Virus record (IMG/VR): IMGVR_UViG_3300046703_000136
Span: 1 to 23,115 of that record
From: a virus
Direction: 5' to 3' (one strand)
DNA: 23,115 nucleotides
Part shown: in pieces, positions 4,799 through 22,375 of the stretch
Layout: every line of letters begins with the position of its first letter
How positions within the stretch are numbered: position 1 is the first letter of the stretch
Program-made: the position numbers and the translations under genes
The notes under the pieces: generated by a model
Told to the model about the DNA's origin: nothing
The model's input: only the letters and a program-made list of their open reading frames with translations
The model's database searches: none

Positions 4799-5155
4799 CT
4801 AATGACCGAAAAGATGTCTGACCCTACTCCACAAAGACGGTTTCTTTGATTCTAGAGATTCCTGAGCTCCTGCAGGCAATAACTTTGTTCCGACAAGCAC
4901 ATAGTTAAGTTGATACATGCAGTTAAGCATCTGTTCAAGTTGTTGAATTTGTTTTTCTTTCTCAGCAATGATCTCTTCTTTGTGCTGAAGGTCCAGGGTT
5001 TCAGCAGCAGGGCCCTGCGATACTGTAACCTCAGTAGAATAATATTTTTCTATAGCCTGGAGGATCATCTTCTGTCTGCTAGTTTCGTTTTCAAGAGCTG
5101 AATCCTCGAGCTGAGCAGCCAGATCATCCCTGAGTTCTATCCTCACTGATGGCAT
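4799..5155 (-). CDS. Ribbon-helix-helix regulator with coiled-coil tail
   Basis: The 118-residue protein begins with a ribbon-helix-helix pattern (about 1-45): a short beta strand (PSVRIELRDDL), then two helices with the spacing typical of CopG/Arc-type repressors. Residues 55-85 (KEEIIAEKEKQIQQLEQML) form a coiled coil, which could extend dimer or higher-order contacts, and the tail is basic with aromatic residues. RHH proteins bind short tandem or inverted repeats. The gene diverges from the operon at 5477, and the 320-bp gap holds a palindrome and two sets of 9-bp repeats, so autoregulation and control of the early operon are likely. No ribosome-binding site precedes the ATG, which suggests a leaderless or very short-leader mRNA. 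Confidence 0.75.
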   Translation of the reverse strand: MPSVRIELRDDLAAQLEDSALENETSRQKMILQAIEKYYSTEVTVSQGPAAETLDLQHKEEIIAEKEKQIQQLEQMLNCMYQLNYVLVGTKLLPAGAQESLESKKPSLWSRVRHLFGH

Positions 5156-5186
5156 GGTCTAATAAATGAGTGAGGTTTGCTTAAGG

Positions 5187-5198
5187 ATTATGATATGA
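5187..5198 (-). promoter_or_regulatory. Possible TATA box of RHH gene
   Basis: On the minus strand the A/T-rich block ATCATATCATAA lies about 32-43 bases upstream of the RHH start codon at 5155. It directly adjoins the degenerate palindrome at 5200-5215, which would place a bound protein next to the TFB recognition element. The box is not an ideal match. Confidence 0.35.
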
Positions 5199-5199
5199 T

Positions 5200-5215
5200 G
5201 TCAACCGCGGTTTAC
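5200..5215. repeat. Degenerate copy of GTCAACCGCGGTTGAC palindrome
   Basis: GTCAACCGCGGTTTAC differs from the perfect 16-bp palindrome found at 8432, 8783 and 22360 by one base in the right arm. It lies immediately upstream of the presumed RHH-gene TATA box, so it may act as an operator there as well as a binding site of the same protein as the other copies. Confidence 0.6.
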
Positions 5216-5241
5216 GTTAAATGAAGTGACATTAACCGACT

Positions 5242-5259
5242 AAACTGTCGAAACTGACA
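5242..5259. repeat. Two 9-bp repeats, minus-strand orientation
   Basis: AAACTGTCG and AAACTGACA follow each other with a 9-base period. Read on the minus strand they contain CAGTTT, the core of the four repeats at 5415-5450, and they face the RHH gene as those face the gene at 5477. Confidence 0.55.
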
Positions 5260-5414
5260 TAAATTAAATGACCGAATCGATGCCCTATGAGAAAAAAAGT
5301 AGGTAGGTATCAGGGCGAAAAAATACTCTTGTTAGGTCATTGTGTTAATAGTATTTAAAATATTTGTTTTTGTTGTTGAGATATTCTTTTGCGTATCTCT
5401 ACCTTTATACCGAC
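5260..5414. other. A/T-rich core of divergent control region
   Basis: This stretch between the two repeat groups holds no reading frame of note. Bases 5343-5395 are especially A/T-rich (TATTTAAAATATTTG and T-runs). It may be extra promoter sequence or an origin unwinding element; I see no clear hairpin or terminator. Confidence 0.4.
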
Positions 5415-5450
5415 TCAGTCAAGTCAGTTTACTCAGTTTCATCAGTTTAA
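5415..5450. repeat. Four tandem 9-bp TCAGTTT repeats
   Basis: TCAGTCAAG, TCAGTTTAC, TCAGTTTCA and TCAGTTTAA start at 5415, 5424, 5433 and 5442, an exact 9-base period. The last copy overlaps the TATA box of the gene at 5477. The array could be an operator for the RHH regulator, or iterons of an origin with the A/T-rich stretch 5343-5395 as melting region. Confidence 0.65.
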
Positions 5451-5454
5451 TATA
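5446..5454 (+). promoter_or_regulatory. TATA box for leaderless gene at 5477
   Basis: TTTAATATA at 5446-5454 is centred 27 bases before the ATG at 5477, so transcription should start at the start codon. No ribosome-binding site precedes the ATG. The box overlaps the last of the 9-bp repeats, so a protein bound there would block TBP. Confidence 0.6.
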
Positions 5455-5476
5455 CCAGTAAAGCATCTTTGAAAAC

Positions 5477-5920
5477 ATGGTTGAAATCTTGGATATACCG
5501 TGGTATGCGGATAAAAAGCGGATACTCAGAAACATCAGAGCAAAGGCCAAGAGTTGCGGTTATCCTACACATTGGTTATTGCGTGAGCCAGTTAAGGTAA
5601 ACGAGCAAATGTGGCTTAGGGCAAAAGACGTCGATAAGAGAAGAGGGGAACGGGTCCAAGTTAGGCGGGTCTTGTATAGCCTGACATATAAGTCGCTTCC
5701 TTTAAAGCGAATTACGATGGTCTGCGGAAACGATCGCTGTATTAACCCCGCTCACATGAGAATACGTGGGTGGGAAGATGAGGCAAATGAGTTCATAGAC
5801 GAACAAATCGAAAAAGGCTGGTTAGACCCCAACGATGCCAAAGAATATTTTGGATGGGAAAACACGCATAACTTAAAACTTCCCGAAAAATTTAGTAAAG
5901 GCATCGAAATTGAGGGTTAG
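5477..5920 (+). CDS. HNH_3-like zinc-binding protein, early operon leader
   Basis: The 147-residue protein carries the HNH_3-type core C83-x4-C88-x-N-P-x-H93 (CGNDRCINPAHM), preceded by a conserved-looking RRVLYSLTYKSLPL segment. In this family the core binds a metal and contacts DNA. The usual His just before the first Cys is replaced (ITMVCGN), so cleavage activity may be weakened or lost and the protein may act as a DNA-binding regulator. It is the first gene of the operon, appears leaderless, and sits behind tandem repeats that overlap its TATA box, all fitting an early control gene. An active nicking enzyme remains possible. Confidence 0.65.
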   Translation: MVEILDIPWYADKKRILRNIRAKAKSCGYPTHWLLREPVKVNEQMWLRAKDVDKRRGERVQVRRVLYSLTYKSLPLKRITMVCGNDRCINPAHMRIRGWEDEANEFIDEQIEKGWLDPNDAKEYFGWENTHNLKLPEKFSKGIEIEG

Positions 5921-5933
5921 TTAGGGGTGCGAC

Positions 5934-6299
5934 ATGGAACAAAAACAGATGTATAAACGACTCAGAAAGGTTCGAGATTCAATAGATGACATAATGCTCG
6001 ATATATCCGAGAGCATAGCAGCAGGCGAACTAGAAAAACAAGAGAAGCGCGACTTTGATGTTATCGCGGTTGGCAAGTCAAAAGCACAACGGGACAGAAT
6101 TAAAGGCACGTTAGACGTTATCAGAGAACTCGAACGAGAGCACGGATCTGCAACGCTGGAGGCTATTATTGAGTGTGGAGCGAAGCAAGGAATCGATAAG
6201 GACAATGTAGAGGCAGAAATCACTATGTTAGTGCAAGAAGCTAGAATATTCGAGCCGGTTAGATACAGCGGGAATTATCGAGAGTCACGTCAAGATTAA
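5934..6299 (+). CDS. Winged-helix protein like MCM C-terminal domain
   Basis: The 121-residue protein has a helical, charged N-terminal half (1-50). Its C-terminal domain (about 53-117) has the order helix, helix, recognition helix, wing: TLDVIRELE, ATLEAIIECGAKQGI, VEAEITMLVQEARIFEPVRYSGNYR. That pattern matches the C-terminal winged helix of archaeal MCM helicases, where the domain ends in a motif like G-x-I-Y-E-P-x-x-G-x-Y-R. No AAA+ ATPase part is present, so it is a free-standing version. It could interact with the host replicative helicase or DNA at the viral origin. A GGGGTG ribosome-binding site precedes the ATG. The fold call is fairly good; the functional link is inference. Confidence 0.6.
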   Translation: MEQKQMYKRLRKVRDSIDDIMLDISESIAAGELEKQEKRDFDVIAVGKSKAQRDRIKGTLDVIRELEREHGSATLEAIIECGAKQGIDKDNVEAEITMLVQEARIFEPVRYSGNYRESRQD

Positions 6300-6310
6300 A
6301 AAGGAGAAAC

Positions 6311-6550
6311 ATGGCCCTCACGTTATTCGATAGATGCAAAGACTGTTCACATTATTTTTCATTCGAACCTTACGTAAAGATATGCTATGCGCGATTTACA
6401 GAATTTGACGCCGGAAAATGTCTAACGTTTAAAGAAAAAGATGGTGAAAAAATGACTGACTTGATCGAAATTATATTAGAGGATTATACAGACAAAACAA
6501 AACCAATGCCGAAACATTGGTGGCGATTAAAAGAAAAAGAAGGTGAATAA
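6311..6550 (+). CDS. Small Cys protein, apparent fusion of two cassettes
   Basis: This 79-residue protein starts after AAGGAG. Its first half has four Cys (C9-x2-C12, C25, C37), suggesting a small zinc site. Near codons 43-49 the DNA repeats the cassette junction found elsewhere (AAAGAAAAAGATGGTGAAA then AATGACTGAC), but with one extra A, so instead of a stop the frame runs through into an internal ATG at 6452. The second half (32 residues from 6452) ends in KEKEGE, like other small genes here. Either the whole frame or the internal start could be used. No family is recognised. Confidence 0.5.
   Translation: MALTLFDRCKDCSHYFSFEPYVKICYARFTEFDAGKCLTFKEKDGEKMTDLIEIILEDYTDKTKPMPKHWWRLKEKEGE
6431..6460 (+). 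repeat. Cassette-junction repeat, read-through copy
   Basis: AAAGAAAAAGATGGTGAAA followed by AAATGACTGAC repeats the junction seen between other small genes, but with one extra A so that no stop is made and two cassettes are fused. Confidence 0.5.
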
Positions 6551-6711
6551 TGAATTTACTGCTTGTGTTTAAATCTAGATCAAAGGAACTAGAATTAGAA
6601 TTGGAAAACACCGATAAATGGGACGACAGTTATAATTATGGATATTATACTGGAATGGTTGACGCTTTCAAAGAAGTAATCGCAATTTTAGAAAAAGAAG
6701 GTGAAAAATGA
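6550..6711 (+). CDS. 53-aa cassette protein
   Basis: The ATG at 6550 overlaps the preceding TAA by one base and has GGTGAATA just upstream. The 53-residue product has a leucine- and glutamate-rich start, a Tyr-rich centre (SYNYGYYTGM) and a helix ending in ILEKEGEK. The pattern of an aromatic G-x-Y-x-G motif followed by an AFKEVI helix occurs in many small phage proteins of unknown role. Its last codons form the repeated junction that supplies the next ribosome-binding site. Confidence 0.55.
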   Translation: MNLLLVFKSRSKELELELENTDKWDDSYNYGYYTGMVDAFKEVIAILEKEGEK

Positions 6712-6803
6712 TAATAGACCCCGTTTGGTTGTTTATCGGCCTTATCCTTATTTGGTTAGTTATAATATCGAAGCGAATTGAACGAATCGAAAGAAGAAGG
6801 TGA
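6708..6803 (+). CDS. 31-aa membrane peptide
   Basis: The ATG at 6708 overlaps the previous TGA in an ATGA junction. One hydrophobic helix (about residues 3-20, PVWLFIGLILIWLVII) is followed by a basic tail (KRIERIERRR), predicting N-out/C-in insertion in the membrane. Function is unknown. Confidence 0.5.
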   Translation: MIIDPVWLFIGLILIWLVIISKRIERIERRR

Positions 6804-6806
6804 AAA

Positions 6807-7217
6807 ATGACTTTCATGTATGTTACTTACGACGAAGAGGATGATTGTATCAAAATAGATGCTAACGACCGCGAGCGTTTCTTGGAGGACTTCGCACCGT
6901 TTTTAAACATTGATGCAGAGAAAACACAAAAAATACTCAACTATGAGGGGGCGTGGGACGATTTAGCAATAAGCAAGAACTATGGTAGCTGCTTCAACTT
7001 GTATATAAACATCTTTGACGATGCTAACGATTATATCCATACTCACTGGGAGCGCGTAACCGATGATATAATCACCGACCGGAACTACAAACGGATTCAA
7101 AAGCTGATAATCATGCAAGAGTTTACCCTCTACAACGATACAAGATTAGAGTATGAAGAGATCATCAAGATTGTTAAAGGGAAGTATGATTTCCACGATA
7201 TGAAAGAAAGAGGCTAA
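6807..7217 (+). CDS. Hypothetical acidic protein
   Basis: The 136-residue protein starts at ATG 6807, preceded by GGTGA from the cassette junction. It is acidic, with many Asp, Tyr and Phe residues, and appears soluble with mixed alpha/beta pattern; there are no Cys pairs, signal peptide or membrane helix. I do not recognise a family. Strong negative charge and small size resemble viral inhibitors or DNA mimics in a general way, but nothing specific supports that. It closes the early operon; the next gene has its own promoter. Confidence 0.55.
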   Translation: MTFMYVTYDEEDDCIKIDANDRERFLEDFAPFLNIDAEKTQKILNYEGAWDDLAISKNYGSCFNLYINIFDDANDYIHTHWERVTDDIITDRNYKRIQKLIIMQEFTLYNDTRLEYEEIIKIVKGKYDFHDMKERG

Positions 7218-7230
7218 AAATAGGCATAGA

Positions 7231-7238
7231 CTTTATAG
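7231..7238 (+). promoter_or_regulatory. TATA box of parB-like gene
   Basis: CTTTATAG at 7231-7238 is centred about 27 bases before the ATG at 7262, predicting a leaderless transcript. No ribosome-binding site lies before the ATG. Confidence 0.55.
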
Positions 7239-7261
7239 TTTAATGTCTATTATCTATTATT

Positions 7262-8302
7262 ATGGTTGAAACAGAACCTCCAAAAGAGCACAAGGCATTA
7301 TATATTCCCACAAAATTAATCAAACCAAATCGATTCAACCCTCGGACAGAGAGGGACAAGGAGAGCGATCAGGAACTCTACGATAGCATACGGATCCGAG
7401 GGGTCGAAACACCCATCCACGTCCGGCCGGTGGAAGAAGATGAGCAGGGCCAGATCTACGAAGTATTTGATGGCGATAGGCGACGAGCGGCAGCTATCAA
7501 AGCGAAGATTGCCACGGTCCCCGTTTTAATAGAGCAAAAATCAGACTCTGAAGTTATCGAGTTCTCACTTGTTTCAATAATAAGACGCAGTTATAATGAC
7601 ATCGAGATGGGACGTGCGATCGTCAGACTTTTAAAAGAGTTTTCAAACGAATACCCCAGTCAAAGATCGTTAATAAACAAGTTGACGATGACCAGGCAGC
7701 GCATAAATCAGCTTGTTCTATTAGTCACCAATCTTGACGAAGAGGCCCAGGAATACGTAGCCCCTGCCGATCCGACAACTAAGCGGATCCCAGAAGGATA
7801 CATCGACGGACGGCTCGGCACAGAACTATCTAAAATACCTGACAAGGAACGACAACTCGAAGCGGTAAAAGAGATAGTTGCGCACCCAGAGCTTAACTGG
7901 ATGGAAAGGCGGCTTCTCGCGTCCGAGGCTAAAGAAGAGCCGGAAACTCCCATCGAGGAATTAGTCGAGCGTCGCATAGCGCACAAGAAACAAAGGATGA
8001 CGACGCTTGTTATGTCAGCAGAGGAATACGAAGGCCTCATCGAAGGGTCTAGAAAGATACTGATTGAACCAACACTAAAGCCAGGGATCCACGAAGGAAC
8101 TATCATAGAGCCGCTCGTTAAAGGGGACCCTCTTGAGATCTCAGACGTATTTAAAAGACCACTCGGCAGGTTCAAGGACATGGACGTCAAGAACGCAGGA
8201 TTTAAGAACGTGCAGGAATTTAAAGAGGCGTGGATTGCTCAGCATGGCGAATGGAAAAACGAGCAGATCGGCTACATCCATTTATTTAAGCCTAAGAAGT
8301 AA
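7262..8302 (+). CDS. ParB-like protein with C-terminal ASCH-like domain
   Basis: The 346-residue protein has a ParB/Srx nuclease-fold domain (about 14-95): PNRFNPR, the GVETPIHVRPV strand, and FDGDRRRAAAIKA, which matches the GERR-type nucleotide-binding motif of ParB. The third ParB box is degenerate (SIIRRSYNDIEMGRAI, about 105-120). A helix-turn-helix follows (about 134-152, QRSLINKLTMTRQRINQLV), as in parS-binding ParB proteins. The C-terminal 100 residues (about 245-346) do not look like the ParB dimerisation domain. They resemble an ASCH/PUA-like domain: ILIEP...GTIIEPLVKG..LEI.DVFKRPLGRF, NAGFKNVQEFKEAW, HG.W and a final IHLF strand. ASCH domains bind nucleic acid, often RNA or modified bases. 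No ParA gene is seen. Palindromes at 8315-8801 are probable binding sites. Confidence 0.8.
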   Translation: MVETEPPKEHKALYIPTKLIKPNRFNPRTERDKESDQELYDSIRIRGVETPIHVRPVEEDEQGQIYEVFDGDRRRAAAIKAKIATVPVLIEQKSDSEVIEFSLVSIIRRSYNDIEMGRAIVRLLKEFSNEYPSQRSLINKLTMTRQRINQLVLLVTNLDEEAQEYVAPADPTTKRIPEGYIDGRLGTELSKIPDKERQLEAVKEIVAHPELNWMERRLLASEAKEEPETPIEELVERRIAHKKQRMTTLVMSAEEYEGLIEGSRKILIEPTLKPGIHEGTIIEPLVKGDPLEISDVFKRPLGRFKDMDVKNAGFKNVQEFKEAWIAQHGEWKNEQIGYIHLFKPKK

Positions 8303-8314
8303 GTTTTAGGAGTC

Positions 8315-8373
8315 TGTCAACCGGAGCCTCGCTCGGTTTACACTAGGCGCTTCCGGTGCTCTTCTTTTTTTCT
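8315..8373 (+). terminator. Terminator of parB-like gene, overlapping split palindrome
   Basis: ACCGGAGCCT (8320-8329) pairs with AGGC (8345-8348) and TCCGGT (8352-8357), leaving GCT bulged, and is followed by a T-rich tract at 8361-8373. The same bases contain TGTCAACCG (8315-8323) and CGGTTTACA (8334-8342), a split version of the palindrome seen downstream with a 10-base spacer. Confidence 0.6.
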
Positions 8374-8430
8374 TTCCGATTCAAATAGCAATGACTTTAT
8401 ACTTTAAGGTTGAATAGGTGCTTGTCAAAG

Positions 8431-8448
8431 TGTCAACCGCGGTTGACA
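8431..8448. repeat. Perfect 18-bp palindrome TGTCAACCGCGGTTGACA
   Basis: Perfect dyad symmetry over 18 bp, 130 bases downstream of the parB-like gene. Size and symmetry match a parS-type site, although the sequence differs from the bacterial parS consensus. It shares its 16-bp core with the copies at 8783 and 22360. Confidence 0.75.
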
Positions 8449-8576
8449 GTCAAGAAGTAGAAACCGCTGGTCGATATGTTTGAAAAGAATCAAAAAGCGT
8501 AGCAGACTAAGGGCAATCACTTGTTTCGCGCTCTTAGATCAGCTATATGTGGTATGCTGGATCGTAACTAAGTAAC

Positions 8577-8607
8577 ACAGCCTTGACGTATCTTATATTA
8601 AGGCTGT
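8577..8607. promoter_or_regulatory. Inverted repeat bracketing TATA box
   Basis: ACAGCCTT (8577-8584) and AAGGCTGT (8600-8607) form an exact 8-bp inverted repeat with a 15-base centre. The centre holds the TATA box CTTATATTA (8592-8600), which lies about 22 bases before the ATG at 8618. The repeat is well placed to be the operator of a dimeric repressor, perhaps the winged-helix product of this locus. Confidence 0.55.
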
Positions 8608-8617
8608 TAGGACTGGC

Positions 8618-8797
8618 ATGAAAACAGATGAACACGACGAACAACATGAGCAAATAATCAAAGAACAGGACAACGTTGCTGACCTACTCGCAAGGTATGA
8701 GCAGGATCAAATAGCACTATTAAAACGAGTTGAGGAACTTGAAGGGAAGGTAGAAAAACTGAGCATAAGAGACATATTTGGTGTCAACCGCGGTTGA
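8618..8797 (+). CDS. Acidic coiled-coil protein ending in palindrome
   Basis: The ATG at 8618 lies a few bases after the expected transcription start, so the gene is likely leaderless. The 59-residue product is acidic and predicted to be mostly coiled coil (about residues 10-48, with LLARYEQDQIALLKRVEELE). Its last codons, GVNRG-stop, lie inside the 22-bp palindrome at 8780-8801. The frame continues without another stop into a winged-helix domain, so this may be the N-terminal half of a longer regulator of about 160 residues. No family is recognised for the N-terminal part alone. Confidence 0.5.
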   Translation: MKTDEHDEQHEQIIKEQDNVADLLARYEQDQIALLKRVEELEGKVEKLSIRDIFGVNRG

Positions 8798-8801
8798 CAC
8801 C
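8780..8801. repeat. Perfect 22-bp palindrome, longest copy
   Basis: The core TGTCAACCGCGGTTGACA (8782-8799) is extended by GG and CC to 22 bp of perfect symmetry. Its right arm supplies the TGA (8795-8797) that ends the coiled-coil frame. A small hairpin (ACCC-TTCGG-GGGT) follows at once. Confidence 0.75.
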
Positions 8802-9103
8802 CTTCGGGGGTTACTACCACGACAATACTGTCTAGAAACAACTCACGATATAAAGGGTATAGGACTGATGAACAGCAACAGACCGATCCTGACAAACTCG
8901 ATCTCGCAATTATAGAGTGCATAGCCAGGAATCCAGGTTTATATGTAAGGGAGGTTTCGAGTTGCATTGGGGGAACACAAGACACAGAAGTTAACGCATT
9001 GACCGTAAGATACAGAATAATAACTTTGGAAAAAACAGGATTTATAAGGACAAAAAAGGTTGGGACGGTCCGGCGCTGTTATCTGGGGGGTCCTAAACCA
9101 TAA
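8798..9103 (+). pseudogene. Winged-helix domain, in frame after TGA, no own start
   Basis: Directly after the TGA at 8795-8797 the same frame stays open for 101 codons. From about 8906 it encodes a clear winged helix: LDLAIIECIARNPGLYVREV, SSCIGG, VNALTVRYRIITLEKTGFI, then a wing RTKKVGTVRRCYLG. This is the type used by archaeal transcription regulators. No in-frame ATG or GTG exists, and the first TTG is inside the domain; an ATG at 8868 is in another frame and closes after 15 codons. So the domain is either the broken C-terminal part of the gene starting at 8618 or is made by stop-codon readthrough or frameshifting. Preservation of an intact domain argues the event is recent or the product is still made. 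Confidence 0.55.
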
Positions 9104-9118
9104 AAGGAGTTGAAAATC

Positions 9119-9160
9119 ATGTCGTATAAATGGCAAGGACATGATCTTGAGGTGGTGTAA
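9119..9160 (+). CDS. Possible 13-aa leader peptide
   Basis: AAAGGAG at 9103-9109 precedes ATG 9119 of a 13-codon frame (MSYKWQGHDLEVV). Its end overlaps the GAGGTGG ribosome-binding site of the next gene, so it may only couple translation. Too short for more. Confidence 0.25.
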   Translation: MSYKWQGHDLEVV

Positions 9161-9161
9161 C

Positions 9162-9569
9162 ATGGATGACGTATTTGTAGACGTGATCGTCAAAGCGTAT
9201 GGGACTAAGCTGGATAAGGCGGCTAAGGAGCTCTTCAATTTAGCAGAAGAGTTAGCGGACTACAACAGCCAAGAACGGGACCTTAAAGATAAAATAACCC
9301 AGATCGAGGCAGGATATAGGCCAGACGTTGCGACAGCCCTTAATGATATTGGGAAACCCAAGTATTCAAACCTGGAGTCCCAAAATGCGATGGTAGTCCA
9401 GCTCAGTAACGCAGATATAGATTACAAACGCGCTAAGATAGAGCACGCAATGGCCCTGCTTAAAATTGAAAAGCACAAGGCCAAAATGCTCTTAAAAGAA
9501 AGAGCACGCAGGGACGCAAGATCAGAAACAGATCTTAGAGTGGAGTTGATGAAATATGAGCTTAAGTGA
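9162..9569 (+). CDS. Coiled-coil hypothetical protein
   Basis: I choose ATG 9162 because GAGGTGGTG lies just upstream; an in-frame ATG at 9141 lies before that site. The 135-residue product is highly helical, with two long amphipathic stretches (about 10-50 and 80-130) rich in Lys, Glu, Ala and Leu. No Cys or membrane segment is present. It is the first gene of the long array of small genes. No family is recognised. It overlaps the next gene by 14 bases. Confidence 0.6.
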   Translation: MDDVFVDVIVKAYGTKLDKAAKELFNLAEELADYNSQERDLKDKITQIEAGYRPDVATALNDIGKPKYSNLESQNAMVVQLSNADIDYKRAKIEHAMALLKIEKHKAKMLLKERARRDARSETDLRVELMKYELK

Positions 9570-9789
9570 TCTAACCTGTAAACACTGGTCAGACAGTCTT
9601 AATGCGTGTGATAGGTGCCATGCATGCAACGATGCCGACGAGCCCATAAACACCGATTGTGACTCCTGCTTTGAGAGGTGCGCCCAGGCTGCCTTTGAAA
9701 GGAGAGAGATCTGTCCAGAGTTTGCGGAGGCTTGCGAGGACCAGGGGTCTTATCATTACGAGGGACCCCGCGATCCAGTCATGGGCTAA
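9556..9789 (+). CDS. Cys-rich small protein
   Basis: The 77-residue product contains ten Cys and several His residues in the first 60 residues (C8, CDRCHAC, CDSCFERC, then two more), which suggests two zinc sites. It has no membrane segment and the tail is acidic and Tyr/Pro-rich. The pattern resembles small zinc proteins of archaeal viruses without matching a named family. Translation is probably coupled to the preceding gene, which it overlaps. Confidence 0.6.
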   Translation: MSLSDLTCKHWSDSLNACDRCHACNDADEPINTDCDSCFERCAQAAFERREICPEFAEACEDQGSYHYEGPRDPVMG

Positions 9790-9791
9790 TA

Positions 9792-9926
9792 ATGAAGGCG
9801 CTTCTTTGTATCGAATGCGACATTAAAAAGGAGCGAGACATCTACTTTAAGCGGTTTGCTGAGATGGATGCAGAAATAAACCTGCTCAAACAGCAGGTCA
9901 TAAAACTAAAGAAAGCAAAAAAGTGA
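9792..9926 (+). CDS. 44-aa Cys/coiled-coil protein
   Basis: The start is ATG 9792, two bases after the previous stop; upstream in-frame starts lie inside the previous gene. The product has C6-x2-C9 followed by a helical, Lys-rich coiled coil (about 15-44). It may dimerise. No family recognised. Confidence 0.5.
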   Translation: MKALLCIECDIKKERDIYFKRFAEMDAEINLLKQQVIKLKKAKK

Positions 9927-9935
9927 GGTAGGACC

Positions 9936-10091
9936 ATGGCTTCAACCATAGAATATAATGCGGTTTGCGTGGACTGCAAACGCAGCAATTTTAAACGGTT
10001 AGAAGAGTGCGGGGGGTTTGGTAGACACTGCCCACTCGCAATAATTGACGAATTGGAACAGAGCAATACCGAAGTAATACGCGAGGGGTAA
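9936..10091 (+). CDS. 51-aa Cys-rich protein
   Basis: GAGGTAGGA precedes ATG 9936. The product has C11-x2-C14 and later ECGGFGRHC, a likely four-ligand zinc site, then an acidic helix. The same leader sequence (AAAAAGTGAGGTAGGA) recurs before the gene at 10444. Confidence 0.55.
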   Translation: MASTIEYNAVCVDCKRSNFKRLEECGGFGRHCPLAIIDELEQSNTEVIREG

Positions 10092-10096
10092 GATAA

Positions 10097-10423
10097 ATGG
10101 CTGACGAAAAAGATTACGCGGTCGCAAAGGAGTCGCTTTGTGGAGAGATCGCGAGAGCAGTAGTAGAAGGTCCTCTCAGGATCGCAAAAACCGAAGTTGA
10201 CGACTTAGTAGTTTCTACTGTCGATACGTCGGATTGTGGACCGGAAACCGCTATATTATCTTATCAAGGGACCTGCCCAGTTGAGCGATACGAAACAGTA
10301 GCGCAAGCGGAGGAGGGTCACAAAAAATGGGTTAAAAGAGTAAGCGAGCCACACTTTAACGGGAAAGTAATTAAGCTGGGATATATGGACGTTGTTGACG
10401 ACGAAGAAATCGAGTTATTCTGA
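10097..10423 (+). CDS. Hypothetical protein
   Basis: GAGGGG lies before ATG 10097. The 108-residue acidic product has an alpha/beta pattern. A central segment (ETAILSYQGTCPVERYETVAQAEEGHKKWV, given here only as landmarks SYQGTCP and AEEGHKKW) resembles a motif of small phage proteins in which a Trp-containing helix follows A-x-x-GH. No catalytic motif or membrane segment is evident. Confidence 0.55.
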   Translation: MADEKDYAVAKESLCGEIARAVVEGPLRIAKTEVDDLVVSTVDTSDCGPETAILSYQGTCPVERYETVAQAEEGHKKWVKRVSEPHFNGKVIKLGYMDVVDDEEIELF

Positions 10424-10443
10424 AAACAAAAAGTGAGGTAGGA

Positions 10444-10590
10444 ATGATGGCTAACGGATTAAAAAATATAGGATTTCCACTGAAGGACTGGAGCAACCTG
10501 TTTCTACAAACGGGGCTCTCGGCAGTGTGGATCCTGCTTGTGTTTGGACTGATTAAAGTCATAACGTGGATTTTCAATATTTCGGTATAA
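10444..10590 (+). CDS. 48-aa single-pass membrane protein
   Basis: GAGGTAGGA precedes ATG 10444. The product has one hydrophobic helix (about residues 25-44, SAVWILLVFGLIKVITWIF) after a short polar start. It sits among soluble genes in the array. Function unknown. Confidence 0.55.
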   Translation: MMANGLKNIGFPLKDWSNLFLQTGLSAVWILLVFGLIKVITWIFNISV

Positions 10591-10600
10591 GAGGTCTAAA

Positions 10601-10903
10601 ATGGGTTGGACACAGGGAGAAAAGTTACGATTCTACGTGTTTATTGAATCAAAAACCGAAGTGACGGGGGTTGAGGTTACAAAAGGCCAAGTAGATATAG
10701 AGCGCCACGGGACTTCCGCCAGAAACGTAAACGGCTGGATAGAACGGACCCCACCAGGACCCGTGTTTATCAAGCTTACAGGCGAGATGGGTGAAGTAAA
10801 AACTGTATCGCACATGCCTGATGAGGCAAGCCCCAAAGAAGTGTTAAAAAAATTAACAGGTGAGGTCAAGAATGACGAAAGTAAAAGTATTAAACGAACC
10901 TAG
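10601..10903 (+). CDS. Hypothetical beta-rich protein
   Basis: GAGGTC precedes ATG 10601. The 100-residue product is predicted to be mostly beta in its first 70 residues (KLRFYVFIE, EVTGVEVTKGQVDIE, GPVFIKLTGE) with a helical, Lys-rich tail. The frame overlaps the next gene by 32 bases. No family recognised. Confidence 0.55.
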   Translation: MGWTQGEKLRFYVFIESKTEVTGVEVTKGQVDIERHGTSARNVNGWIERTPPGPVFIKLTGEMGEVKTVSHMPDEASPKEVLKKLTGEVKNDESKSIKRT

Positions 10904-11252
10904 CAGAATGCCGGAAAAGACCCGCAGACTCCACGCAATAACCAAAATGTATCAATATCACGGGGTCCGTTCAAAGGACCCTCGCGTAAACATAGAGCTC
11001 CCTATATTCCGAGCAAAACTAATCAATGAGGCGATAAGTTACGAACAGTTGCAGACCCGCACCGGACTGTCTGAAGAGGCGGTTCAGATGCTTACTGAAT
11101 TTTGCGAGACGAAACAAGCGAGTCCTAGGGACGTAGAATACATCAAACGCTGGAAAAAACACTTATCTAGGATCTTTGGTTTTAACGAGTGTGACTTTGA
11201 CATGGCAGTCTATGAAGTAGACGACACGGACTGGCGCTTAGTTGAGGTGTGA
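10872..11252 (+). CDS. Putative helix-turn-helix protein
   Basis: ATG 10872 is preferred over GTG 10860 because GAGGTCA lies just before it. The 126-residue basic protein has a likely helix-turn-helix at about residues 50-75 (LINEAISYEQLQTRTGLSEE), followed by a helical, Trp/Lys-rich segment and an acidic end. This suggests DNA binding, perhaps as a regulator of the array. It is not a confident match to a named family. Confidence 0.5.
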   Translation: MTKVKVLNEPSRMPEKTRRLHAITKMYQYHGVRSKDPRVNIELPIFRAKLINEAISYEQLQTRTGLSEEAVQMLTEFCETKQASPRDVEYIKRWKKHLSRIFGFNECDFDMAVYEVDDTDWRLVEV

Positions 11253-11255
11253 GTT

Positions 11256-11462
11256 ATGACGCTAGAACAGTGTATGCGCTGCAAGTTTGTGCGTATCAAA
11301 GGGTGGAAATATGACCTGCCCATGGGATTTTTCGACGTGTGGCTTAGTTGTGAGTTTTACTTATCGAAATATACAGATGCCACAGGTCGCATGTGCCCAG
11401 TCCCTCGGACCGAGTGTAAGAAATTCGACCACGCGGACGGGTGGGGCGTTACAGAGGTTTAA
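11256..11462 (+). CDS. Cys-containing hypothetical protein
   Basis: GAGGTG precedes ATG 11256. The 68-residue product has C6-x2-C9, C32, C47 and C54, a possible zinc site, and aromatic-rich stretches. Its end encodes the GAGGT ribosome-binding site of the following secreted-protein gene. Confidence 0.55.
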   Translation: MTLEQCMRCKFVRIKGWKYDLPMGFFDVWLSCEFYLSKYTDATGRMCPVPRTECKKFDHADGWGVTEV

Positions 11463-11465
11463 AAA

Positions 11466-11888
11466 ATGAAAAAGAAACTCTTGATAGCAGGGCTGACGTT
11501 GCTACTCGTCATAGCTTTTACCGTGACACCAGTAGCAGCGCAATCACAGCACCAGACTACTTACTACAAACCAAAGCTCGCATTCTTTTACAACGCAACG
11601 GACGGCCACTTAATCCAGAACGCAAATAATGCCGATGACATTAAAATGCTTCGGACGGTAAGGCTGTTGGACCTGACTTACGACGTGACATACTACGACC
11701 TTGGAGCTCATCCAGGCTACACGAACATGGCTAGATTTGCTTATGGCGTCACACAAACGCCCACACTCTCAGTCCTCGGTCCAAAATTTCCAAGCGTAGC
11801 GAGTGACTTTCACGACATCGTAGGGCATCATTCCTACTGGGACACACGGGTGATAATATGGCATACTACAAATACGGAATTTATGTAG
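11466..11888 (+). CDS. Secreted thioredoxin-fold-like protein without CXXC
   Basis: The 140-residue product has a clear signal peptide: basic KKK start, hydrophobic core (5-18) and a likely cut after VAA at about residue 25. The mature part has the strand-helix-strand order of a thioredoxin fold: KLAFFYNATDG, a helix DIKMLRTVRLL, DVTYYDLG, then FAYGVTQTPTLSVLG with the cis-proline signature at P99. The CXXC pair is missing, so no redox activity is expected. It would be exported and might act at the cell surface. It overlaps the next gene by 31 bases. Fold assignment is by pattern only. Confidence 0.55.
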   Translation: MKKKLLIAGLTLLLVIAFTVTPVAAQSQHQTTYYKPKLAFFYNATDGHLIQNANNADDIKMLRTVRLLDLTYDVTYYDLGAHPGYTNMARFAYGVTQTPTLSVLGPKFPSVASDFHDIVGHHSYWDTRVIIWHTTNTEFM

Positions 11889-11971
11889 ACTGGTTTCTAC
11901 AGATGGCGATTCTCATAAATATATGTGTGATCGCTGGCTTGAGCCTCGGTTGGATCTTTGGAGCGCGATAG
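11858..11971 (+). CDS. 37-aa membrane peptide
   Basis: GGTGATA precedes ATG 11858. One hydrophobic helix (about residues 12-33) follows an aromatic start. It ends in TAG, one of few TAG stops in the window, and the next gene is in the same frame four bases later. Function unknown. Confidence 0.45.
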   Translation: MAYYKYGIYVDWFLQMAILINICVIAGLSLGWIFGAR

Positions 11972-11974
11972 AAG

Positions 11975-12232
11975 ATGAATCCAGAAGAGTGTTTACTATG
12001 TGAATGGGAGGCTACGACATCGTGTAATAGGGACTGCCAATGTTATGACATCAAAGAGCAGCTACGCGGAAAGAAACGGGTAAATAATGCGGTTGAAGCC
12101 CTCACCATAATAAGTGCCCTGGTTTTAATAGTCCCGTTTATTATCGTGTGGACTATAGCTGCAACCATTGGTGCCGTCATAGAATGGTTTAGCCCCCTTA
12201 CCGACGCCATAAAGATCGCAAGGGGAAAATAA
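11975..12232 (+). CDS. Cys-motif membrane protein
   Basis: The 85-residue product starts with C6-x2-C9 ... C17-x3-C21-x-C23, a likely metal site, and then has a long hydrophobic stretch (about 44-68, IISALVLIVPFIIVWTIAATI) that could form one or two membrane helices. Such Cys-head plus membrane-anchor proteins occur several times in this array. Ribosome-binding site is weak (GGAGCG). Confidence 0.55.
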   Translation: MNPEECLLCEWEATTSCNRDCQCYDIKEQLRGKKRVNNAVEALTIISALVLIVPFIIVWTIAATIGAVIEWFSPLTDAIKIARGK

Positions 12233-12233
12233 A

Positions 12234-12359
12234 ATGGACCCAAAGTGTGCGATCTGCCAAGGAGACATGCTAGAAACCGATTTCATTATGTGCTCGAATT
12301 GCAGGGCCAAGGAACTAAAAAGACGATCCGAGTATTTTACTGAGCGGAAAAGAAGGTGA
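12234..12359 (+). CDS. 41-aa zinc-ribbon protein
   Basis: ATG 12234 directly follows the previous stop. C5-x2-C8 and C20-x2-C23 form a compact zinc ribbon, followed by a basic helix (KELKRRSEYFTERKRR). It may bind nucleic acid or protein. Its end is the first copy of the cassette junction in this stretch. Confidence 0.55.
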   Translation: MDPKCAICQGDMLETDFIMCSNCRAKELKRRSEYFTERKRR

Positions 12360-12362
12360 AAA

Positions 12363-12500
12363 ATGACTGAGTTTTGCGTATATTGGAACTTGGTAGGCCA
12401 TTGTCAATTAGGAGTTGACGATGCGGCTAACTGTGTCATAAAACATAGACTCGGCGAGAGTGGTAATTGTCCAATGAAAGAAAAAGAAGGTGAAAAATGA
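12363..12500 (+). CDS. 45-aa Cys-rich cassette protein
   Basis: The start uses the GGTGAAAAATGAC junction. The product has four Cys (C5, C14, C24, C36), likely one zinc site, and ends in KEKEGEK like the gene at 6550. The stop overlaps the next ATG (ATGA). Confidence 0.5.
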   Translation: MTEFCVYWNLVGHCQLGVDDAANCVIKHRLGESGNCPMKEKEGEK

Positions 12501-12616
12501 CCTTATATGAAGAAAAGATGTTAGAGATGCTAACGTTCTCAGAACGGTTAGACAGATTTAGAAAAACGTTGGAGCAAGCATTTACACCACTGTTTAATTT
12601 AAAAGAAGGTGAATAA
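12497..12616 (+). CDS. 39-aa helical cassette protein
   Basis: Starts inside the ATGA junction. The product is one amphipathic helix-rich peptide (EEKMLEMLTFSERLDRF) ending in KEGE. No family recognised. Confidence 0.45.
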   Translation: MTLYEEKMLEMLTFSERLDRFRKTLEQAFTPLFNLKEGE

Positions 12617-12822
12617 TGAGCCATCGGCGGCTTATAGGCAAACGACAAAAACGAGCATACTGGACTAGGTGCCGCGATTGGGCTGATCGTGCTAGGCGGA
12701 TTAAAGATGTCACTCCGCTTGAGGGCAAAATTGCCTGCATTAAAGCAACCCCTGGTAAGCTACTTAGTTATGAAGAAATGCGGAATCATTACGAAATAGG
12801 AAGGTGGAGATTTGAGAGGTGA
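12616..12822 (+). CDS. Basic hypothetical protein
   Basis: ATG 12616 overlaps the previous TAA by one base after AAGGTGAATA. The 68-residue product is strongly basic at the N-terminus (RRLIGKRQKRAYWTRCRDW), consistent with nucleic-acid binding. No domain recognised. Confidence 0.5.
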   Translation: MSHRRLIGKRQKRAYWTRCRDWADRARRIKDVTPLEGKIACIKATPGKLLSYEEMRNHYEIGRWRFER

Positions 12823-13796: not shown

Positions 13797-14134
13797 ATCC
13801 GAAACCAGATAGCGGGTGGGATAATCCAGCACCAATAGAACCAATGGAGCACCCGCCCTACAAAAACGCAAACCAAGACGATCAACCCAAAGACCTACTC
13901 CAAGAATGTAAACAAGAGAAAGACGAGCTCTTAATGGAGCTGGTTACTAAGTGTGCCGTATGTGAAATTGTAGGCACGCTCTCGAAAGACAAAGCAACGC
14001 TTATGTCTAAACTCAATCAGGTCACGCGAGTGCTCTCATTGGTTGAAGAGGAAAATAAGCATCTAAAACAGGCGTTCAGAGACTTAAAAGATGAGCTCAC
14101 CATAAGCCGCCTCTCCAATGAAATACAAAAATGA
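13793..14134 (+). CDS. Coiled-coil hypothetical protein
   Basis: GAGGCC precedes ATG 13793. The 113-residue product has a Pro/Asn-rich, probably disordered start (1-35) and a long coiled coil (about 38-113) containing C54-x2-C57 (CAVC). It overlaps the next ATG by 4 bases. No family recognised. Confidence 0.55.
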   Translation: MNPKPDSGWDNPAPIEPMEHPPYKNANQDDQPKDLLQECKQEKDELLMELVTKCAVCEIVGTLSKDKATLMSKLNQVTRVLSLVEEENKHLKQAFRDLKDELTISRLSNEIQK

Positions 14135-14271
14135 TCTATTGCAGCCTTCTAAAACGGAATGTGACCATGAAAGGCGACTGCATGACGTGCAATAACCTTC
14201 ACTGGAAAACCGTAAACATCGAAGGCGTCTCATCCGAGATGCAACACTGTAACCTCTGGAGACTTTTTTGA
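14131..14271 (+). CDS. 46-aa Cys-rich protein
   Basis: Starts in an ATGA overlap with the previous gene. The product has C4, C17-x2-C20 and C40, plus aromatic residues, and fits a small zinc-binding protein with the motif GDCMTC. Several genes in this array share such a G-x-C-x-x-C layout. Confidence 0.5.
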   Translation: MIYCSLLKRNVTMKGDCMTCNNLHWKTVNIEGVSSEMQHCNLWRLF

Positions 14272-14272
14272 A

Positions 14273-14461
14273 ATGAACGAAACAGACGCAATCCTAGACA
14301 AGCTAAGCAGAGAAGATAAAAGGCTGGCTAATGTTTACCTCGAATTTGTAGGGGAAGCATACATAGATCACAGCCTATCGACCGGCGAATATAAACTTAT
14401 TAGGTCAGTTGATGTAATACACATCAGACAGCAAGACCCAGGAGAACCATGCCAGAAATAG
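14273..14461 (+). CDS. Hypothetical acidic protein
   Basis: ATG 14273 follows the previous stop by one base. The 62-residue product has a helical acidic start and a beta-like second half (YKLIRSVDVIHIRQQ). Its end encodes GGAGAA, the ribosome-binding site of the glycosidase-like gene. No family recognised. Confidence 0.5.
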   Translation: MNETDAILDKLSREDKRLANVYLEFVGEAYIDHSLSTGEYKLIRSVDVIHIRQQDPGEPCQK

Positions 14462-15483
14462 ATTATCACTTTACCTGCACGCCTTACTCAGTTAACGATG
14501 GCGTGACGGTCCCGTATTTTGTAAATAAGAGATTCAATACAGCCGTGTTAGTAGTCCCAGACACAGGGATCTACGCCAATGAGATCAACAAACTCAAAGC
14601 CGCAGGGCTCAGGGTCATCGTGGACATAGAGCAACCGATCTGGGCAGGGGGCCAGCAACAGAATACACCCATAAGCAATTTCGCTACGTATTTTCAAAAT
14701 CTAAAGAACGTCGGTGTAACCATCGTATCGTCAGAAGGGGGGCGTAGCGGGGACCTCGACGTCATCTCGAAATACTTTGCATATATGAACTATAATTGCG
14801 ACCAATGCGGCCTCTGGAAGGACTTTTACAAGCACCCCGCAACCGTGATAAACAGCTGGGAAGCCTACTACCCCTGGGAATGGGAATACATCCAGAAAGG
14901 CATCATAGAGAGCAAAGGTAAGAAGCAAGGGATCCTCGCAGGCCTATGGGAAGGTGGGGCTAATCCAATACTAACCGCTACAAAATCAGGAAACGGTCTA
15001 TCATATTACCAGATAGCTAACTGGATGCTCGCCAACGGGGGCGTAGACCATTTCTCTGTTTGGGGGGGACTTAACAACGAATCGTTGGCCCAATATAAGG
15101 TGCTTGGATTCGAAGCGATCGTCAATAAGATGCAAGCCATGTTACCTCCAAGAACATCGAGCCCAATAATACCAACACCGAAACCAGCACTAGGAAACCC
15201 AATATCCGTATTAACCGCTCAATACACGAAAACCGCTACAGGGAACATTATCGACGGACGGGGCAGGGATAAGGACAACAAGCCAGCAACAGGACGCATG
15301 ACAGGTCTATGGGAACAAAACCTAAAAACGAAGGACTGGTTTGGCGTATCGTGGAGGGCGATCGACGGGGAAGCGTATTATGCCTATAACCTAGACAAAC
15401 TCCTACCAAGCGGCTATCATAAATTGAGGATCCAAACGAACGACGGAGTAACCACAGACATTACACCTTACGAGAAAGCATGA
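14449..15483 (+). CDS. TIM-barrel glycosidase-like protein with C-terminal beta domain
   Basis: The 344-residue product has an N-terminal region (about 25-230) with the alternating strand-helix pattern of a glycosidase TIM barrel: FNTAVLVVPD, GLRVIVDIEQP (D59, E61), GVTIVSSEGGRSG (E96), TVINSWEAYYPWEW (E138), GILAGLWEGG (E168) and HFSVWGG. A Pro/Thr/Ser linker (about 233-250) leads to an Ig-like or carbohydrate-binding beta domain (250-344). No signal peptide is present. It could be the viral lysin acting on the host envelope, exported through the holin-like proteins, or a virion enzyme. I cannot assign a named glycosidase family or catalytic residues with certainty. GGAGA precedes the ATG. 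Confidence 0.55.
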   Translation: MPEIDYHFTCTPYSVNDGVTVPYFVNKRFNTAVLVVPDTGIYANEINKLKAAGLRVIVDIEQPIWAGGQQQNTPISNFATYFQNLKNVGVTIVSSEGGRSGDLDVISKYFAYMNYNCDQCGLWKDFYKHPATVINSWEAYYPWEWEYIQKGIIESKGKKQGILAGLWEGGANPILTATKSGNGLSYYQIANWMLANGGVDHFSVWGGLNNESLAQYKVLGFEAIVNKMQAMLPPRTSSPIIPTPKPALGNPISVLTAQYTKTATGNIIDGRGRDKDNKPATGRMTGLWEQNLKTKDWFGVSWRAIDGEAYYAYNLDKLLPSGYHKLRIQTNDGVTTDITPYEKA

Positions 15484-15815
15484 TCGCAGGTGCTCCAGAT
15501 AATAAGATGGCCCAGGCACCACAAGAAACGCAAGAAACACAAGACGCAAAGGAAATAGCATACCACCGATATAACCAAAGCGAAACAGTAATATGTCAAA
15601 ATCCTGACTGTCGCAAACCGTTTATCACAGTAATTCGCAAACGAAACGGTAAAGTGACTGACAAGCAAGCAGGACGGAAGCGGAAGTATTGCTATGAATG
15701 TTCACCACCAAAGAACTGCATAACACGGCGCGATCTAGGAAAATGGGAAGTCTTAGACGTCCCGTTGCGAGGGGCGTGGACCAATGATAACAATAAACGG
15801 GACCTGGATCAATAG
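15480..15815 (+). CDS. Zinc-ribbon-like protein
   Basis: ATG 15480 overlaps the previous stop by 4 bases. The 111-residue product has a Gln/Glu/Thr-rich disordered start (1-30) and a zinc ribbon at C39-x4-C44 and C71-x2-C74, with a basic loop between. Such ribbons bind DNA, RNA or protein. It is the first of a group of small genes leading into the terminase genes. Its last 32 bases overlap the next gene. Confidence 0.55.
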   Translation: MIAGAPDNKMAQAPQETQETQDAKEIAYHRYNQSETVICQNPDCRKPFITVIRKRNGKVTDKQAGRKRKYCYECSPPKNCITRRDLGKWEVLDVPLRGAWTNDNNKRDLDQ

Positions 15816-16227
15816 GGTCCCTCTTAAAGTCGATTTTAAAGAGATAATCGGATACGTCGATCTGTATATGCAAGACGACGGGACCATAAAAGGCATCGCC
15901 AAAATAGAAGATACAAAGAGGTTTAATCAATTTAAAGAGCGCTTAGAAAACGGCTATCACATAGGACTAACACCAGAGATAGAGCCAGATAAATACGAGC
16001 AAGAAAACGACATGATCCGACAGATGCACACGGGGCCACTAAACGAACCTGGTGACATGCCTGACGATACGAAAGGGGGGCACTACATGCCCCCACACAT
16101 ACACACTGACGGCTACTACATGCCCAGACTGATGAACACCAAAATATTACGCGAACTCGGTGTCTTTATAAATCACTGGTCCATAGCGGAGCTGAGTTAT
16201 GGCTTATATCCCTGCGACGATGAATAA
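15784..16227 (+). CDS. Hypothetical protein, faint prohead-protease resemblance
   Basis: The 147-residue product has an N-terminal beta-rich segment: YVDLYMQDDGTIKGIAKIED, then a helix and NGYHIGLTPEI. In phage prohead proteases and related DUF2213-type proteins a similar order (G-x-A-x-I, then G-x-x-x-S-P) occurs, but the catalytic residues of that family are not clear here. The rest is His/Pro/Tyr-rich (GGHYMPPHIHTDGYYMPRL). It overlaps both neighbours and leads into the packaging genes. The resemblance is weak and is given as a lead only. Confidence 0.4.
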   Translation: MITINGTWINRVPLKVDFKEIIGYVDLYMQDDGTIKGIAKIEDTKRFNQFKERLENGYHIGLTPEIEPDKYEQENDMIRQMHTGPLNEPGDMPDDTKGGHYMPPHIHTDGYYMPRLMNTKILRELGVFINHWSIAELSYGLYPCDDE

Positions 16228-16528
16228 AGCAGTCCCAGAGATCTACACGCCCTGGAAAATCTGTGGGAATCCTAAGTGTCTAAAAGGGTTTCGTGCTGTT
16301 TTACGATACGAAGTAGGGCGTCATCGCATAAGGTGCGGACGTGCTATATACAGACGATACTGCTCGACAGCGTGTAGAAAGAAAGCGGAAAACATGAGGC
16401 GCGTCGCTCGGACCAAAGCAATACAAGCAGATATGTTCTTTGAATACAGAGCAGAGCGCAAAGCGGAGGGTAAATGGTTAAAACAGGCAGACCAACCAAG
16501 TTTAACGCAGATAGAGCCGCAATTATAA
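16199..16528 (+). CDS. Zinc-binding basic protein
   Basis: GGAG precedes ATG 16199. The 109-residue product has C22-x4-C27, C46 and C55-x3-C59 (YCSTACRKKAENMRR), a zinc-ribbon-like site with a basic helix, similar in style to the product of 15480. It overlaps the small terminase gene by 55 bases. A nucleic-acid binding role is likely. Confidence 0.55.
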   Translation: MAYIPATMNKAVPEIYTPWKICGNPKCLKGFRAVLRYEVGRHRIRCGRAIYRRYCSTACRKKAENMRRVARTKAIQADMFFEYRAERKAEGKWLKQADQPSLTQIEPQL

Positions 16529-16989
16529 TAGATCTAGTGCGTAAAGGTAACTTTAAAGAAACCGCTGCAAGGGCAGCAAGGATCACCACACGCACGCTCG
16601 ATAACTGGGTAGCCGCCGGTAAGAAGGCTAAGAGTGGTAGGTTTTTTGACTTTTTTACTGCACTAGAGCTCGCAGATGCAGAGGCGGAAGCAAACGCAGT
16701 AGAACGCTGGATAAATCACCAGGGTAACAGCCCAGAAGCTGCGAAAGAATACCTACGCAGGCGCTTCCCACACTGGAATGTAGCAGACAAGCAGGAAATC
16801 AAACAAGAGAACACTGAGTCCGACTTAACCAAGGATCGAATGAATGAGTATTTCGAGCAACTTAAACGAAGAGGAATCCCCAGAGGACTTAAAGAGAGCG
16901 CGTTACTTCGCGACGGTGCTGATGAATCCGTTTATCCCAGCGGAGGTTCGACCACCGACGACGAAACAGATCGAGCTTCTGACGAGTAA
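16474..16989 (+). CDS. terS: Terminase small subunit-like protein
   Basis: GGAGGGT precedes ATG 16474. The 171-residue product starts GRPTKFN, then has a helix-turn-helix (about 15-50, with GNFKETAARAARITTRTLDNWV) that would recognise the packaging site, and a helical oligomerisation segment (ALELADAEAEANAVERW). This layout is typical of phage small terminases that start packaging by guiding the large subunit to DNA. The C-terminal quarter is disordered and acidic. It overlaps the large-subunit gene by up to 146 bases, an unusually long overlap. Confidence 0.75.
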   Translation: MVKTGRPTKFNADRAAIIIDLVRKGNFKETAARAARITTRTLDNWVAAGKKAKSGRFFDFFTALELADAEAEANAVERWINHQGNSPEAAKEYLRRRFPHWNVADKQEIKQENTESDLTKDRMNEYFEQLKRRGIPRGLKESALLRDGADESVYPSGGSTTDDETDRASDE

Positions 16990-21459: not shown

Positions 21460-22347
21460 ATGGCTTATAACCTGCTCAAGAGCGCACAACGCCAACGATA
21501 CAGGCGAGCGGTCTACAAACGCAGGGATTCTCTTATACCTTCAGCACAGCGTATCGTTGTAAATTCATATAGGCAGATGGCTACGCCTATAACTGCAGCA
21601 TTCAAGAGCGGCGGCACTCTAAACGAGAAAGAGGCGGCGGCACTCAAGGCTATTGACCAACAGAAACCTGTCATTAAAGTGATGGTCAAGCGTATCTGGG
21701 AGATGGCCGGAACCGAGGGCTACGTATTTTCACAAGAGATCTTTGGTGCTTCGGGGGCTTCTGGGGCCATGCTTGCAGGGGGCAAATCAGCACAAAACTC
21801 CCTGAGTATCGGCCCTAAAACACCCTTCGAAGGATACCACACAAAGGCGGCCAAACTAATTAAGGCGTGGATGGCGTTTGTCGCGAAGTATGTGGACGAG
21901 GATACGGGAAACAAGATAAAGTGGATAGAGGAGGGGGAAAAGAAAGAGCTCCAGCAACTGATATTCGAGGGGATCCAGAAAGAAGAGGGCGTGCCCAAGA
22001 TCACTAAGCGAGTCGAGGCTATGTTTACGGACATGCCTACCTGGAAAGCACGCAGGATCGCACAAAGCGAAGTCATAGAAGCGTTCTCACAAGCCACACT
22101 ACAACAAAGCATAGACGCAGGGTCCCACCTCGACAGGATATGGATAAATACTGACGATGATAGAACTCGACCAGCACACAGGGACTATCCCGAAGGTATA
22201 GGCGGCGCAACGATCCCGTGGGATGCCGACAGCTTTTTAGAAGTGGACCCGCGACCTGAAAACGATGACGGATCGGAATGGCCAGGCGATGCGGTTAACT
22301 GTCGGTGCTGTCTAGGATTCGCAATACCTAAGAAACCGAAGAAGTAA
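21460..22347 (+). CDS. Mu gpF/SPP1 gp7-like head morphogenesis protein
   Basis: The 295-residue protein has a helical N-terminal part and the MuF-type C-terminal domain: ARRIAQSEVIEAFSQATLQQS (landmarks ARRIAQSE and FSQAT, about 195-215), W-x-N-T-x-D-D-R-T-R-P-A-H-R, and the ending DAVNCRCCLGF (about 275-285). These match the family of minor head proteins that sit beside the portal and are thought to travel with DNA. It follows the portal as usual. The start has only a weak ribosome-binding site, within the last tandem repeat. No toxin or extra C-terminal domain is fused here. Confidence 0.88.
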   Translation: MAYNLLKSAQRQRYRRAVYKRRDSLIPSAQRIVVNSYRQMATPITAAFKSGGTLNEKEAAALKAIDQQKPVIKVMVKRIWEMAGTEGYVFSQEIFGASGASGAMLAGGKSAQNSLSIGPKTPFEGYHTKAAKLIKAWMAFVAKYVDEDTGNKIKWIEEGEKKELQQLIFEGIQKEEGVPKITKRVEAMFTDMPTWKARRIAQSEVIEAFSQATLQQSIDAGSHLDRIWINTDDDRTRPAHRDYPEGIGGATIPWDADSFLEVDPRPENDDGSEWPGDAVNCRCCLGFAIPKKPKK

Positions 22348-22359
22348 CCTTATGGGGGC

Positions 22360-22375
22360 GTCAACCGCGGTTGAC
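22360..22375. repeat. Perfect copy of 16-bp palindrome
   Basis: GTCAACCGCGGTTGAC lies 12 bases after the MuF stop, about 14 kb from the copies near the parB-like gene. Its exact conservation in an otherwise unrelated gap argues for a bound protein, most simply the ParB-like protein. Confidence 0.7.

Follow-up and report, generated by a model that had tools for sequence, protein, structure and literature searches.

The window analysed here, the whole of an IMG/VR record of 23,115 bp, carries a gene of the ParB family together with several copies of a 16-bp palindrome, GTCAACCGCGGTTGAC. The genes and sites concerned are the following:

4799-5155 (- strand): small Arc/CopG-like (ribbon-helix-helix) protein with a coiled coil; match to PHROG transcriptional repressors (E 9e-4), Pfam RHH_1 below cut-off
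5199-5216: site with one core mismatch, GTCAACCGCGGTTTAC (core 5200-5215), upstream of the Arc-like gene
5477-5920 (+ strand): endonuclease-like conserved neighbour
7262-8302 (+ strand): parB-like gene, 346 amino acids; ParB_N domain (Pfam E 1.3e-16), HTH with recognition helix TRQRINQLVLLV, divergent C-terminal part
8315-8342: split form TGTCAACCG-N10-CGGTTTACA, immediately after the parB stop codon
8431-8448: 18-bp perfect palindrome TGTCAACCGCGGTTGACA, intergenic, downstream of parB
8618-8794 (+ strand): predicted small ORF (58 amino acids) between two sites downstream of parB
8780-8801: 22-bp perfect palindrome GGTGTCAACCGCGGTTGACACC, overlapping the stop codon at the 3' end of this small ORF
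9141-9569 (+ strand): conserved gene 3' of the sites next to parB
22359-22376: site CGTCAACCGCGGTTGACA with an exact 16-bp core (22360-22375), directly 3' of the minor-head gene

The parB-like product shows the domain order of its family, with ParB_N followed by the HTH, both in Pfam searches and in a fold model that matches Noc, ParB and KorB structures in the PDB (including KorB 8qa9/8qa8). Its recognition helix reads TRQRINQL. With regard to the CTPase motifs (GERRxR and ENxQR), GDRR is partly kept and the ENxQR box (box 3) is degenerate, replaced by SIIRR with loss of its E and N. The equivalents of Caulobacter E135 and N136 are S and I/T in all three full ParBs of our viral sample, which also included a truncated one. 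In Caulobacter ParB, alanine mutants of E135 lose CTP hydrolysis and those of N136 lose CTP binding (PMC8367383). A PF13614 search found no ParA-type ATPase in the window, in its apparent other half (G010) or in the related virus G011, both described below; the host might provide a ParA. Elsewhere in the window, two runs of small genes (6428-6823 and 12347-12632) share a near-identical leader, AAAAAGAAGGTGAAAAATGA, present in six copies.

The 16-mer has three exact copies in the window and a fourth with a single mismatch. Its count against expectation, which the first-pass annotation had proposed as a check, gave four matches at ≤3 mismatches in the window versus 0.09 expected from dinucleotide shuffles, where the largest count was 1. 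The consensus of the sites, GTCAACC-NN-GGTTGAC, consists of two 7-bp half-sites around 2 bp. Not all copies are intact: besides the one-mismatch site, the split form has two half-sites separated by a 12-nt spacer instead of 2 nt. It can also be folded as a hairpin, and its place bears an intact site in a relative (L151), so that the split form might be a copy that has decayed or been modified. The sites at 8431 and 8782 and the split form at 8315 adjoin parB, as palindromic sites do in ParABS loci. The three features that had been described as a cluster in this region are indeed all there; however, the set is genome-wide and dispersed, with further members at 5200-5215, at 22360-22375 and at position 11817 of G010.

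The complete virus and its relatives

Another record, IMGVR 3300046703_000046 (G010, 20,184 bp), has ends that match positions 1-136 (99%), 22985-23115 and 22318-22422 (98%) of the window, with 98-100% identity over the overlapping stretches, and contains capsid, tail and protease genes that are absent from the window. Both records appear to be halves of near-identical virus genomes with a total of ~43 kb, in which the exact site at G010 11817 is the fifth. A window stretch without counterpart in the matching part of G010 (22423-22984) holds an HNH endonuclease gene (22467-22970) that adjoins a site and probably represents a recent insertion. At 14085-16561 of G010 (L050), a reverse-transcriptase-like gene is followed by two similar C-terminal stretches (SSNSNRNIS and SSNSSRSIG), which looks like a viral diversity-generating retroelement. 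The best matches of the terminase in a phage collection were the methanogen viruses psiM100/psiM2 (44% identity), and there was a weak match to an archaeal MCM winged-helix; the capsid gave no archaeal signal, and positions 5000-12000 of the window had no DNA similarity to known phages. An archaeal (methanogen) host is likely. How archaeal tailed viruses control their genomes is, to our knowledge, little known.

A scan of 2.9 million viral contigs retrieved the exact 16-mer in 11 records. One of them, G011 (3300041955_000805), bears three sites and encodes a ParB with 63% identity to that of the window. The Arc-like gene, the endonuclease-like gene and the gene at 9141-9569 likewise have homologues there, that of the last one beside a site. 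Searches of the viral contigs with the single ParB found no close relatives, and a two-sequence ParB profile recovered only G011 again among viral contigs and nothing among genomes. In G007 and G002, which carry structural genes of other viruses, the site lies between structural genes. Four GC-rich records (G001, G005, G008 and G009) have one in-gene copy each, which we judged likely to be due to chance. Two related 56-kb phages (G004 and G006) contain 8-10 copies each, mostly within genes; of five positions that could be aligned, four keep the 16-mer unchanged between flanks of 58-76% identity, and the copies lie in more than one reading frame, which argues for selection acting on the DNA. 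Neither ParB_N nor ParA was found in these phages. One of their copies lies inside the gene of a 273-amino-acid protein (loci L041-L046) with a [ST][RK]QRAYQL helix, perhaps a candidate binder; its matches to the ParB profile were below threshold (E 0.14 and 0.41), and its low-confidence fold model (pLDDT 49) had ParB among the top matches, which were non-significant.

A scan with the neighbour gene at 5477-5920 yielded two further relatives of the window virus. The first (locus L151 of genome G223) has the Arc-like gene and a ParB 56% identical to that of the window. It has no GTCAACC palindrome; it has seven GTTAATC-NN-GATTAAC sites at ≤2 mismatches versus 0.1 expected, and in nearly all of them the substitutions affect the same two bases of the half-site. 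They lie 5' of the Arc-like gene, immediately behind the parB stop codon (the place of the split form in the window), ahead of a small gene whose location corresponds to that of 9141-9569, near the terminase region and at the minor-head/protease junction. In the second (L152), which has a truncated ParB, the palindrome beside parB is a weaker match of GTTAATC type. The recognition helix is STARINQYIKLV in L151 and STASINQFVKVV in L152. At position 179 (Caulobacter numbering), every ParB examined that is linked to GTCAACC has Leu, whereas the two linked to GTTAATC have Tyr/Phe. Site type and helix thus change together, and the positions of the sites are kept. Three other genomes found via the neighbour gene (G225-G227) had neither site type. 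G223 encodes a second ParB_N protein adjoining the first (L151 8091-9179). In L152 (~5000-7400), parB is cut to its C-terminal part, and its neighbours are a tRNA-Leu gene and genes resembling IS200/IS605; this arrangement might be a scar left by integration or transposition.

The locations of the sites are conserved as well. The place at 5200-5215 also bears a site in G011 and L151, and the junction between minor-head and protease genes bears one in three viruses (window 22359, G007 15478, G223 29839), so that the conserved junctions are those before the ribbon-helix-helix gene, after parB, and between these two late genes. Across the five records of archaeal-type viruses, only 3 of the 18 sites fall within ORFs versus 15.2 expected, and 15 lie outside versus ~3 expected; ORFs were called greedily, and some of the three in-ORF cases are probably spurious frames. 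By eye, TATA-like boxes can be seen a short way upstream of several sites: the sequence TTTATACT occurs ~34 nt upstream of a site in both the window (8431) and G011 (15289), and the G011 site that precedes the Arc-like gene has TTTATATA just a few bases ahead of it.

The palindrome in Chloroflexota

Among 84,980 species genomes, the 18-mer WGTCAACCGCGGTTGACW was found at 34 loci, about half of them from Chloroflexota according to record titles. A ParB homologue was encoded at 8 of the 34, several with parA beside the site. The Chloroflexota sites are often grouped in twos or threes on the parAB contig, and their central dinucleotide is free (GTCAACC-NN-GGTTGAC). Most of these Chloroflexota genomes encode two strong ParBs, and among the retrieved loci the palindrome accompanied 11 of 13 ParB2 genes versus none of 16 ParB1 genes from the same genomes (Fisher p 2e-6; as the genomes were selected for bearing the site, the test bears only on which ParB accompanies it). 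ParB2 helices are of the type [ST]RQR[IVA]xQL (e.g., SRQRIHQL), whereas ParB1 helices follow the canonical pattern K-x-R-x-x-[VI]-x-N; the viral TRQRINQL fits the former and not the latter. Position 178 of Caulobacter ParB contacts parS and is a conserved N in ParB and Noc (PMC7383237); in our alignment it is Q in both ParB2 and the viral proteins.

GTCAACC-NN-GGTTGAC is thus the apparent parS of a second Chloroflexota parAB locus (L085, L082, L065, L066, L068, L090, L091 and L087, in genomes G012-G021), which exists besides the canonical ParB/parS elsewhere in the class, where canonical parS, GTTTCACGTGAAAC, was present in 137 of the 199 genomes searched. In the open-access literature searched, we found no description of parS in Chloroflexota, of this second ParAB system or of a viral or archaeal use of the site. 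The earlier remark that the viral palindrome differs from the bacterial parS consensus is correct with respect to GTTTCACGTGAAAC, which is not the site in the virus, but the same palindrome marks this second bacterial system. Virus and Chloroflexota ParB2 loci (L085, L082, L065 and others) share the palindrome, the [ST]RQRxxQL helix type and the ParB_N domain; unlike the viral protein, ParB2 is bacterial, comes with a parA of its own, retains ENxQR intact and forms a separate group in the tree. Descent of the viral ParB from ParB2 was not supported by this tree, in which the viral ParBs do not group with ParB2, so that the likeness of their helices would reflect convergence or retention. Matches in Phenylobacterium, Stenotrophomonas and Bacteroidales were set aside because there was no ParB homologue at the fetched loci; several were terminator-like.

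Binding and function of the viral sites

The association with ParB2 loci in Chloroflexota and the joint change of site and helix in the viral relatives strongly support the reading of these palindromes as ParB sites, and uphold the first-pass annotation in calling them parS-like and linking them to the neighbouring gene. On these grounds, the virus's own ParB-family protein very probably binds them. The alternative binder is the Arc-like protein encoded at 4799-5155, which would then regulate its own gene and control the virus, with ParB as a bystander; otherwise, the Arc-like gene might be a regulated target. A site upstream of this conserved neighbour in three viruses and the similarity of its product to transcriptional repressors in PHROG agree with such a role. 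Moreover, the Arc-like protein also diverges somewhat in the GTTAATC virus, such that viral co-variation alone cannot discriminate it from ParB, and most of the discrimination comes from Chloroflexota, where the palindrome is tied to ParB2 and the fetched bacterial loci had no match to an Arc-like homologue. Together with the Pfam ribbon-helix-helix score below cut-off, this makes the Arc-like protein a very improbable owner of the sites. That the palindromes act as RNA hairpins or terminators rather than as protein sites is scarcely credible: they can fold in RNA, and some bacterial copies elsewhere are terminator-like with longer arms, but a hairpin does not need a fixed sequence, whereas here one 16-bp sequence is repeated far beyond chance and the same two half-site bases have been swapped at nearly all sites of a relative.

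Sites bound by ParB might form a true centromere, where the protein loads at parS and a host ATPase of ParA, MinD or SegA type segregates the virus as an extrachromosomal provirus. The presence of a ParB family protein, the identity of the palindrome with the bacterial ParAB2 site and the occurrence of three sites, intact or nearly so, in the 3.6 kb around parB are in line with this proposal. However, ParA was found neither in the two halves of the genome nor in G011, the E and N of the CTPase box are lost and sites also occur at conserved junctions of late structural genes, where a centromere does not need them. We therefore consider partition unlikely as their main role. The first-pass annotation had suggested a new archaeal viral centromere; archaeal is plausible given the terminase, but the centromere is not established, for the reasons just mentioned and also because some sites lie beside TATA-like motifs. 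Even less probable is that ParB, through spread sites, compacts or positions the genome or helps to package it (or marks it as self) without direct control of genes. The dispersion of the sites suits such an organiser, as do the 56-kb phages, whose many in-gene copies appear to be under DNA-level selection despite lacking ParB_N and ParA; nevertheless, the sites of the archaeal-type viruses avoid genes and keep to junctions, and the 273-amino-acid protein is only a candidate binder in those phages.

The absent partner gene, the lost E and N of the CTPase box and the location of the sites at conserved junctions outside ORFs suggest that the sites control genes instead of pulling DNA apart, and we favour regulation over partition as their main role by somewhat more than even chances. 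The viral ParB would bind the 16-bp sites through a helix of the non-canonical Chloroflexota ParB type. From boundaries of genes and operons throughout the ~43-kb genome, namely before the Arc-like gene, around parB and among the late structural genes, these sites would allow ParB to block or tune transcription at promoters and at junctions within operons, probably during a quiescent or carrier state.

Such a regulator would have analogues in plasmids and phages. KorB of plasmid RK2 is a ParB-fold repressor that uses several operator sites (PMC11790492) and is among the fold matches of the viral ParB; however, KorB is a CTP-binding and CTP-hydrolysing protein that acts together with KorA and IncC, the viral protein lacks the equivalent of its N146, and the KorB operator sequence differs from the viral site. 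The repressor of L5-type mycobacteriophages recognises one site in many copies at promoters and in short intergenic spaces, the stoperators (PMC9283540). As in L5, one site is repeated across a tailed-virus genome and is largely kept out of ORFs; in L5, by contrast, a monomer binds asymmetric 13-mers whose orientation follows that of transcription, whereas the viral sites are palindromes linked to a ParB-family protein. Chromosomal ParABS (ParB/Spo0J with canonical parS) and Noc/NBS share with the virus the ParB_N and HTH fold and several 16-bp palindromic sites, but differ in site and helix, and in the virus no ParA was found and the E135/N136 equivalents are lost.

A broader proposition, which we put forward tentatively, is that a ParB which lost its ParA and the CTP switch now serves as master regulator over a regulon of stoperator type, that site and helix have switched together among archaeal tailed viruses, and that this palindrome is found again alongside further proteins with that helix (Chloroflexota ParB2 and perhaps the 273-amino-acid phage protein). 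If true, ParB-type DNA recognition would make use of a reusable helix/site code. The pairing of protein and site in these viruses varies naturally, with a matching helix for each of the GTCAACC and GTTAATC types, and bears on the recognition code of non-canonical ParBs and on the possible function of a ParB without CTP-switch residues as a regulator; the GTCAACC palindrome also points to a second Chloroflexota ParABS system with a non-canonical parS.
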